A program made the translations under genes and the position numbers. Positions 1-54,269 of a DNA stretch of 64,000 nucleotides are shown piece by piece. The stretch is taken from contig JAEUJY010000039.1 of assembly GCA_016794525.1 (NCBI GenBank), positions 1 to 64,000 on the forward strand, given 5' to 3'. Within the stretch, counting starts at the first letter, position 1, and each line of letters starts with the position of its first letter. Below the pieces are notes generated by a model. It ran no database searches. It saw only the letters and a list, made by a program, of their open reading frames with translations, and had not been told where the DNA came from. This DNA comes from Myxococcales bacterium. GTDB taxonomy: Bacteria > Myxococcota_A > Polyangia > Haliangiales > Haliangiaceae.

Positions 1-522
1 ACCGGGCGACGTCCCACGTGGGAGAGCCGGGCGACGTCCCACGTGGGAGCGCCGGGCGACGTCCTACGTGGAGCGCCGGGCGACGTCCCACGTGGGAGCG
101 CCGGGCGACGTCCCACGTGGGAGCGCCGGGCGACGTCCCACGTGGGAGCGCCGGGCGACGTCCCACGTGGAGCGCCGGGTGACGTCCCAAGGGGGAGCAC
201 CGGGCGGCGTCCCACGTGGAGCGCCGGGCGACCACGTGGAGCACCCGGCGACGCCCCACCTGGGAGCACCGGGCGACGTCCCACGTGGGAGAATCGGGCG
301 ACGTCCCAAGGGGGAGCACCGGGCGAACCGGGCGACGTCCCACGTGGGAGCACCGGGCGATGTCCCACGTGGAGCACCGGGCGACGTCCCACGTGGAGCG
401 CCGGGCGACGTCCCACGTGGAGCGCTGGCGACGTCCCACGTGGGCGAACCGGGCGACGTCCCACGTGGAAGCAACGGGCGACGTCCCACGTGGGAGCAAC
501 GGGCGACGTCCCACGTGGGAGC
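1..522. repeat. Tandem array of 24-25 bp units with palindromic core
   Basis: About 21 head-to-tail copies of a 24-25 bp unit, with consensus roughly RCCGGGCGACG followed by the palindrome TCCCACGTGGGA and GC. There are no unique spacers: units abut directly. Several units are degenerate, with CCCAAGGGGG replacing the palindrome near 187 and 308, one-base-shorter cores such as TCCCACGTGGAG, and a truncated copy near 225-240. The array begins before the window, so its true length is unknown. It ends 16 bp from the stop codon of the minus-strand 5'-nucleotidase gene, so it lies in that gene's 3' flank. All six frames stay open because of the GC content and the unit sequence, and this should not be read as coding. 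The same palindrome recurs inside the HNH nuclease gene at 53.7-54.0 kb. Confidence 0.95.
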
Positions 523-52586: not shown

Positions 52587-54269
52587 ATGGTGGACGGCGT
52601 GGATGGTGGCGCGGGGGAGGCACCCACGAGCGACGGCGCGGCGGCGGCGACGGCGAGCGACTGGCGCGCCCTCGATCAGACGCTGCGCCAGCTGGCGCGG
52701 CGGCGGGCCGCGCTCGACGTCGAGGAAGCGCGGTACCTTCGGCAAGCGCGGGCCGAGGGGCTCCATCGCCGGTTCGGGTACGGGTCGTTCTTCGAGTACG
52801 CCGAGCGCGTGCTCGGGTACGCGCCGGCGGTGACGCGCGAGCGAATGCGGGTGGCCGATGCGCTCGCGACGCTACCGAAGCTGCACGCGGCCATGGCGGC
52901 AGGCGACCTCGCGTACAGCGCCGTACGCGAGCTGACCCGGGTCGCGACCACCGAGAACGAGGCCGAGTGGCTCGACGCCGCGGCCACCCGCACCGTGCGC
53001 GAGATCGAGGACATGGTCAGCGGGCGTCGCCTCGGCGACGCGCCCGACGACGCGCGCGATCCGGCCCTGCTGTTACACGAGCGGCGGTTCTTGCTGAGCG
53101 CCGCGACCCTCGGGGCCTACGTCAAGGTGCGCGACGTCGAGTCGAAGGCGTGCGGGCGCGCGCTCACTGACGACGAGGTCATGGCGCTCCTGTGCGCCGA
53201 ACGGCTCGCCGGCACCACCGCGCCTGATCCCGCCGCGCGGCGACCGCAGTATCAGATCGCGCTCAGCCAGTGCCCAGACTGCGCGAAGGGGTGGATCGAC
53301 GTCGCCGGCCAGGCGATCGAGCTCAGCGCCACCGAAATCGCGCAGGCGTCGTGCGACGCCGAGTTGCTCGGCCGCGTCGATGGCGAGGCGCCGCCGCGCG
53401 TGACCAAGACCATCCCGCCGCGAGTCCGGCGTGCCGCACTGCGGCGCGACCGCGGTCGGTGTCGCGTGCCTGGCTGCCGCAACGCCCGCTTCGTGGACCT
53501 GCACCACGTCGTGCCACGGGCCAAGGGCGGCGATCACCGGCCGACCTGGTTGGCGACGATGTGCTCCGCTCACCACAAGGCCGCGCACGACGGCCGGCTC
53601 CTGGTCACCAAGGACTCGCGCGGCCGGCTCAGGTTCGCGCACGCCGACGGCCGTCCCTACGGCGCCCAGCCGTCCCACGTGGGAGATCCGCCGCCGGCGC
53701 CCCCCGGCCAACAAGCAACGGTCGAGAAGTCCGCAGCCGCGCCGGCACCGGCGCCCGCCGCCGACGCGTCCGCAGAGTCGCCAAGCAGCACTGCCGTGCC
53801 CCAGGGGCCCGCGGCCAAGCCTGGCGACGTCCTCGCCGCGGTCGCAGCCCGCTCGTCGTCGCCGGACGCCCCCGTCATTACCGCGCTGCCCGCGAAGGCG
53901 CACCTGGAACGTTCGAAGGTGGAGGCGGCGTCCCACGTGGGACGCGCGACGCCACGACCAGCGACGCCGCGGACCGCGAAGCCCCGGTCTGCAGAGGCGC
54001 CGGCCATGTCCCACGTGGGACGCGCGATGAGGAAGGTACCGGCCACCGCCCATGCGACACCGGCGAAGGCCCGAACGGCACAGGCGAAGGCCCGAACGGT
54101 GGCAGCGCCGGGGCCGACCGCGCCCCGCGTGAACACCCGAAGGCCGAAACGCGGACGACAGAGCCGACGTGGCACCGCACCAGCCGACGCGAGCGAACAA
54201 CTCGCCCGGCGCCATCGGGCGAGCCGACGCTCGAAGCCTAGAAGCCGACGCGGACGGTCACGCCGGTGA
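52587..54269 (+). CDS. 13E12/DUF222-type HNH endonuclease with palindrome-bearing tail
   Basis: 560 residues. Residues 25-240 are the helical 13E12-repeat (DUF222) region (YLRQARAEGLHRRFGYGSFFEYAERVLG, ERMRVADALATLPKLHAAMAAGDLAYSAVRELTRVAT). Residues ~285-336 are the HNH domain: zinc Cys292/297 (CRVPGC), DLHHVVPRAKGG with the two His, then CSAHHKAAHDGRL. From ~360 on the chain is disordered (Ala/Pro, then Arg/Lys-rich). It contains SHVG at 363, 449 and 475, each encoded by the palindrome TCCCACGTGGGA at 53673, 53931 and 54009. The ATG at 52587 has no clear RBS. Its last 32 bp overlap the stop region of the converging TPR gene. Confidence 0.85.
   Translation: MVDGVDGGAGEAPTSDGAAAATASDWRALDQTLRQLARRRAALDVEEARYLRQARAEGLHRRFGYGSFFEYAERVLGYAPAVTRERMRVADALATLPKLHAAMAAGDLAYSAVRELTRVATTENEAEWLDAAATRTVREIEDMVSGRRLGDAPDDARDPALLLHERRFLLSAATLGAYVKVRDVESKACGRALTDDEVMALLCAERLAGTTAPDPAARRPQYQIALSQCPDCAKGWIDVAGQAIELSATEIAQASCDAELLGRVDGEAPPRVTKTIPPRVRRAALRRDRGRCRVPGCRNARFVDLHHVVPRAKGGDHRPTWLATMCSAHHKAAHDGRLLVTKDSRGRLRFAHADGRPYGAQPSHVGDPPPAPPGQQATVEKSAAAPAPAPAADASAESPSSTAVPQGPAAKPGDVLAAVAARSSSPDAPVITALPAKAHLERSKVEAASHVGRATPRPATPRTAKPRSAEAPAMSHVGRAMRKVPATAHATPAKARTAQAKARTVAAPGPTAPRVNTRRPKRGRQSRRGTAPADASEQLARRHRASRRSKPRSRRGRSRR
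53673..54020. repeat. Three copies of palindrome TCCCACGTGGGA inside the HNH gene
   Basis: Perfect palindromes lie at 53673-53684, 53931-53942 and 54009-54020, all in the same frame (Ser-His-Val-Gly). The second extends to an 18-bp perfect palindrome GCGTCCCACGTGGGACGC. All carry the 13-mer GTCCCACGTGGGA, which is also the core of the tandem array at 1-522. Confidence 0.95.

Follow-up and report, generated by a model that had tools for sequence, protein, structure and literature searches.

Why should one short palindrome recur in frame within a nuclease gene and again in a tandem array at the far end of the same contig? The question is raised by a 64-kb stretch of a Myxococcales genome (64,000 nucleotides, here called the window). 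The reading preferred here, with a rough probability of 0.6, is that a palindrome-reading HNH nuclease with a ParB-type fold and its own sites have diversified and spread together, in the manner of REP elements and RAYT proteins although with an unrelated enzyme.

The palindrome in the window

The gene (52587..54269, + strand) encodes an HNH nuclease of 560 aa and is one of about 26 family loci in the genome. The 12-bp palindrome TCCCACGTGGGA is found at 53673, 53931 and 54009, each time in frame 0 of the ORF, where it reads Ser-His-Val-Gly (SHVG). Palindrome 1 (53673..53684, + strand) comprises the 12 bp only and lies directly after the HNH domain, a position that is kept among paralogs. Palindrome 2 (53928..53945, +) is an 18-bp perfect palindrome, GCGTCCCACGTGGGACGC, with TCCCACGTGGGA as its core, and palindrome 3 (54008..54021, +) is the 14-bp GTCCCACGTGGGAC. 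Three in-frame copies in the nuclease tail, one of them within an 18-bp perfect palindrome, had been reported in the initial annotation, and both the coordinates and the reading frame are confirmed. The intergenic tandem array of the same palindrome (1..522) is truncated by the contig start. It had been put at about 21 copies, a fair figure if decayed units are counted, but only 9 copies are exact; about 10 more carry one or two mismatches, and the period is mostly 25 bp. As had been stated, there is no exact TCCCACGTGGGA between 521 and 53672 of the window. The supposition that the palindrome recurs beyond chance also stands, with 12 copies observed in the window versus 0.01 expected, a number reached in 0 of 100 shuffles.

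Distribution in the genome

Genome-wide, 348 copies of TCCCACGTGGGA were counted in 9.8 Mb, versus 0 for the reversed control pattern, and so the palindrome is far in excess in the comparison with expectation that had been set beforehand. As six congeners have only 0-1 copies, the exact 12-mer has expanded in one lineage. A tblastn search of the genome with the window HNH protein returned 36 matches, many of them at contig ends. Exact TCCCACGTGGGA is present in 21 of 26 HNH loci that were read, always in frame as Ser-His-Val-Gly; the remaining five are two divergent paralogs with variants and three loci truncated by contig ends before the first site. A typical paralog has a site in the linker that precedes the zinc-finger/HNH half and another immediately behind the HNH domain.

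Locations were determined for 135 of the 348 copies, in 1.84 Mb consisting of contig starts, HNH loci and known arrays, which is not a random sample. Thirty-six of these copies are in HNH genes, 99 are in 12 arrays, and none is solitary. The arrays are intergenic or nearly so, as judged from ORF-based gene calls. They also lie away from HNH genes. Array periods are frequently 24-26 bp, with others of 36-37 or about 45 bp, and mostly are not multiples of three. Spacers differ from array to array, that is, they are locus-specific; therefore no long unit was pasted, and the arrays look like local tandem duplication. A GAT tail is seen on one side of the palindrome in 24/36 gene copies and 7/12 arrays (binomial p 2e-8). 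Because the site is symmetric yet the tail is one-sided, common descent of the gene and array copies is suggested. Two contig-start arrays (L048 120-170 and L126 100-148) have a common left flank, ACAACTACCTTGATTCCTGCCG, followed by unrelated spacers.

Sites in the HNH genes of relatives

The relatives' loci considered here are 80 named loci from a scan of 84,980 species genomes, all of them titled Myxococcota (Myxococcales, Kofleriaceae, Polyangiaceae, Sandaracinaceae), Deltaproteobacteria or Proteobacteria. The core CCCACGTGGG is present in 61/80, with 107 copies in 568 kb (188 copies/Mb) and up to seven copies per locus. In congeners, too, the HNH genes have this core, with different but self-complementary arms (CGCCCACGTGGGCG, CACCCACGTGGGTG, GCGACCCACGTGGGTCGC and CGTGCCCACGTGGGCACG), and in a sister genus several core copies whose arms match flank the HNH genes at distances of up to 1.6 kb. 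Absence of the palindrome from the HNH genes of relatives would, according to the initial annotation, have refuted the link; instead, the core is there and the arms differ. Some HNH clades have alternative dyads, CCCAGCTGGG and the 22-bp CGATTGTCCACGTGGACAATCG.

Several further loci were noted. An HNH locus of UBA1660 (L262 3806-6069) contains four copies of TGGCTCCGCGGAGCCA, an unrelated-looking dyad. In two others (L154 313-1215, its gene with an internal stop, and L227 2784-3000), TACCCAGCTGGGTA and GTCCCAGCTGGGAC are repeated, with the same outer half-site and a different centre. Congener HNH proteins (L073, L078, L100 and others) have a RuvA C-terminal domain as their last part (PF07499, E 3e-7 to 7e-6; the gathering score is exceeded except in L100), and several of the genes concerned have the palindrome in mid-coding sequence. 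This domain may point to RuvB or to Holliday junctions. Searches of plasmids and phages brought up one full-length DUF222-HNH gene from actinobacteria, which has a single, different palindrome upstream. On a Rhodococcus plasmid, the 16-bp dyad CGTCCCCGCGGGGACG (L321 3690-3706) lies about 100 bp upstream of the DUF222-HNH gene, with a faint likeness to the myxobacterial sites.

Core count per Mb correlates with HNH count over 35 genomes (rho 0.72, versus 0.13 for the reversed control pattern). The core numbers 3 and 5 in congeners that lack HNH genes and 33-389 in those that have them. Among 241 genomes of the class, the core is enriched where there are strong HNH relatives (p 1e-7), and this also holds outside the window genome's own family (p 0.003). 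These p values ignore phylogeny, and the correlation is partly due to copies inside the HNH genes themselves. Genome G009 has many HNH genes and no core enrichment, and carries GCGTCCACGTGGACGC instead. In G002, most of the armed copies seen sit in HNH genes, and dispersal is therefore not general. Two core-rich genomes with weak HNH matches or none (G012 and G026) were also inspected; the copies seen are single with mostly unpaired arms, and are likely background.

Selection on the DNA and dialects of the arms

In the relatives' loci, the first and second positions on either side of the core can pair with their counterparts in 80% and 75% of copies, versus 41% and 35% expected. Where copies are translated, the synonymous third base of the Gly codon changes with the preceding residue (Ala-GGC 32, Thr-GGT 9), and Ser-GGA is used throughout the coding copies of the window genome. 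Since a synonymous codon covaries with the arm, selection acts at the level of DNA. It could be supposed that the peptide (SHVG, AHVG or THVG) is selected and that codon bias produces the palindrome, and 61/75 in-ORF copies in the relatives do use the HVG frame. Such an account does not predict a Gly codon that keeps the dyad, the 32/107 copies outside the ORF, or intergenic arrays whose periods are mostly not multiples of three. As a sole cause, peptide selection is refuted by the codon covariation and the noncoding copies, and it is scarcely credible overall. Among paralogs of the window genome, synonymous identity beside the mid-gene site is only 0.75, and the 12 palindrome bases are invariant. 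A gene conversion hotspot centred on the palindrome was considered and rejected, as synonymous identity around this site is not raised.

Arms agree between sites of one locus that have unrelated flanks (0.71, versus 0.16 between loci; 0/2000 permutations). Mapped on the HNH tree, the arm dialect requires 16 changes, versus a mean of 23.7 in 300 shuffles, none of which needed fewer than 19. Within the single genome UBA2376, three HNH clades differ in dialect, and clade-mates elsewhere share theirs. The dialect thus tracks the HNH clade and not the genome, from which it is inferred, on sequence comparison, that whatever reads the site was most likely inherited with the HNH gene.

This pattern bears on the idea that the agent of spread is a RAYT-like Y1 tyrosine transposase, the palindrome being a classical REP and the HNH genes mere landing sites. 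The window genome does have 17 Y1_Tnp matches (L281-L297 in G000), more than any congener, and congeners with fewer palindromes have 0-10. However, CCCACGTGGG is found within about 2 kb of 0/17 of these loci, whereas HNH loci have it; the few hits near Y1 genes of congeners look like conserved coding sequence, in other frames, for the N-terminus of Y1; no REP tetranucleotides were observed; and it is the HNH clade that the dialect tracks. RAYT was rejected as the agent, and this origin is very improbable.

The HNH protein and its predicted fold

The AlphaFold model of the window protein (mean pLDDT 86) has two parts. The C-terminal part is the HNH domain (aa 272-349; 53400..53633, +), with a McrA/IscB-like fold, as placed by Pfam, Foldseek and VIA-align; His306-His307 and the Cys/His zinc ligands are invariant in the family alignment. 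The designation 13E12-type HNH nuclease, given in the initial annotation, is appropriate for the family, in which Pfam finds DUF222 in 13/43 and HNH in 32/43 members, but the window protein itself falls below the cut-offs for both HNH (E 0.028) and DUF222. C-termini across the family are divergent tails or the RuvA_C domain, and homology between paralogs mostly stops 13-40 nt past the HNH domain. The possibility that an element ends at the palindrome was discarded: some paralog tails align to +181, and rapid tail divergence explains the pattern.

The N-terminal part (aa 36-160; 52692..53066, +) overlaps the DUF222 of relatives. Its top 12 structural matches are all ParB/Noc/Spo0J (VIA-align Z 8.1-10.3, about 100 residues, rmsd about 2-2.7), Foldseek agrees, and the KorB DNA-binding domain is also among the matches. 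An hhalign comparison with ParB is collinear (E 0.00078), with a probability of only 25%, and Pfam HTH_ParB gives E 0.29. The domain is therefore only putatively of the ParB/Noc DNA-binding type: sequence support is weak, and the assignment rests on the predicted fold. Pfam scans of the family and the whole window ORF found no ParB_N CTPase domain.

The palindrome's likeness to parS had been noted ahead of the fold search. The parS consensus TGTTTCAC-GTGAAACA is bound two-fold symmetrically, the palindrome has the centre CACGTG as in parS TGTTTCACGTGAAACA, and residue 173 of the ParB recognition helix reads the outer half-site base of parS (PMC7383237). In the window protein, the predicted recognition helix region is at aa 81-95 (52827..52871, +) of the AlphaFold model, and residue 81 covaries with the arm base in relatives. 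At the labelled loci outside the window genome, residue 81, at the start of this helix, is His with arm T (8/8), Asn with arm A (2/2) and Lys with arm G (2/2). The window genome is an exception, arm T there pairing with Ala/Gly. With about three independent contrasts on the best tree, this apparent covariation is only a lead.

The parS likeness allows another reader, namely that the palindrome is a chromosomal parS or Noc-type site read by ParB, which the HNH genes merely share. In its favour, the 20 kb read around parB showed no canonical parS, and an array (L323 2505-2720, C63) is situated at a distance of about 7 kb from that gene. On the other hand, a PF02195 search found one gene per genome, the chromosomal ParB, and a second ParB/Noc was rejected on that ground; ParB has the same recognition helix, GKDRSTVANAVRLLKLP, in congener G006, a genome with only 5 core copies; several dialects coexist in one genome; and the arrays are scattered. 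This reading is improbable, though not quite as much so as the transposase.

A proposed partnership of a nuclease and its own sites

In the preferred reading, the gene would encode a site-specific HNH nuclease with an N-terminal ParB/Noc-type DNA-binding domain, a homodimer of which would read a parS-like palindrome, NN-CCCACGTGGG-N'N', each HNH clade in its own arm dialect (TCCCACGTGGGA in the window clade). The gene would bear sites in its linkers or flanks, with the same word in intergenic tandem arrays. With the dimer on its sites, the HNH domain would nick or cut there, and repair would multiply sites and genes and extend sites into local tandem arrays, so that the nuclease and its sites are maintained together, in a partnership like that of RAYT and REP.

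These steps are not equally secure. The association, the DNA-level constraint, the arm symmetry and the clade-matched dialect are shown by the comparisons above. Recognition by the HNH protein is well supported by inference, from the predicted fold, the parS likeness and the covariation, in the absence of binding data. That the protein cleaves there, and that repair drives the spread, is conjecture; repeated breakage and repair at the sites would fit local tandem arrays whose spacers are site-specific and which have a one-sided tail in common.

The main rival dispenses with mobility: the HNH protein or a clade-specific regulator would bind the palindrome to control or titrate the nuclease, and the arrays would result from replication slippage. 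A parS-type binding domain can be that of a repressor, as the structural match to KorB also recalls; the sites lie within and near the gene; and the arrays, with their locus-specific spacers, resemble local tandem duplication. Sites inside gene bodies, up to 1.6 kb off and in up to seven copies, are however unlike an operator, about 300 copies are in arrays outside HNH genes, and the GAT tail common to arrays and genes suggests copying. Control or titration without mobility is unlikely, if well ahead of the other alternatives.

The initial annotation had offered two readings, a nuclease and repeat that spread together and a palindrome that is the nuclease's target. Both survive and merge into the nuclease-and-sites reading. 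The second is the better supported, by the predicted parS-type domain and the parS-like palindrome, again without binding or cleavage data. For joint spread there are the correlation of core and HNH numbers and the common GAT tail, but copying itself is not shown.

Significance

To our knowledge, DUF222/13E12-HNH proteins are common repeated genes with no known target, site or function. Should every gene prove to bear its own binding site, targets could be read straight from sequence, and a ParB-type recognition code would be testable on dozens of natural variants. If the reading is true, an enzyme class would be added to the short list of proteins owning a dispersed bacterial repeat, a source of palindrome-specific nucleases would be at hand, and the purpose of a large enzyme family in soil and water Myxococcota may be explained. 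A bolder extension is that the entire DUF222/13E12-HNH superfamily consists of ParB-derived palindrome-reading nucleases with clade dialects, undescribed selfish nuclease-repeat systems that seed tandem arrays; this is tentative, with the odds against it, though somewhat less so than for operator control.

Comparison with known systems

As in REP-RAYT, the gene of a DNA-processing enzyme goes with short palindromes that are found in intergenic clusters as well, and the repeat type is specific to the enzyme clade; here an HNH gene stands in place of RAYT. What differs is the enzyme, an HNH nuclease that has a ParB-like domain and is not a Y1 tyrosine transposase (PF01797), and no Y1 transposase stands beside the repeats at the 17 loci of the window genome. 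The imperfect hairpin with a loop and GTAG-type tetranucleotide is absent; the dyads are perfect, loop-free, 12-22 bp long and found also within coding sequence, and mobility has not been shown.

With ParB-parS and Noc-NBS there is in common a predicted DNA-binding fold (Z 8-10) and a specificity that varies at outer half-site bases; the ParB-type HTH domain is present as a predicted fold only, with weak sequence support, and on binding to a parS/NBS-like palindrome the likeness of the core and the arm-residue covariation speak only indirectly. Here, by contrast, this fold is fused to an HNH nuclease, the window ORF has no ParB_N CTPase domain by Pfam, and sites are in the system's own genes and dispersed arrays, not only around the origin.

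HNH homing endonucleases likewise combine the HNH fold with a cognate site in the DNA close to their gene. The present gene is free-standing, with multiple intact sites in and beside it and a symmetric 14-bp site; interruption by the gene of its own target is not met, although introns and inteins were not specifically searched for.

The 13E12/DUF222 HNH proteins (REP13E12 of Mycobacterium tuberculosis) share the order DUF222 then HNH, a pairing met at family level, and the repeated genes. They differ in that the window protein is under the DUF222 cut-off and that C-termini are divergent tails or a RuvA_C domain. In the open-access literature, which alone was searched, no paper was found that connects DUF222/13E12-HNH proteins with either a palindrome or ParB. 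Apart from this broad protein family, none of the families considered has all of its defining features here. Each part of the system is known and their pairing is not, though the behaviour of the pair may prove to be REP-RAYT-like.
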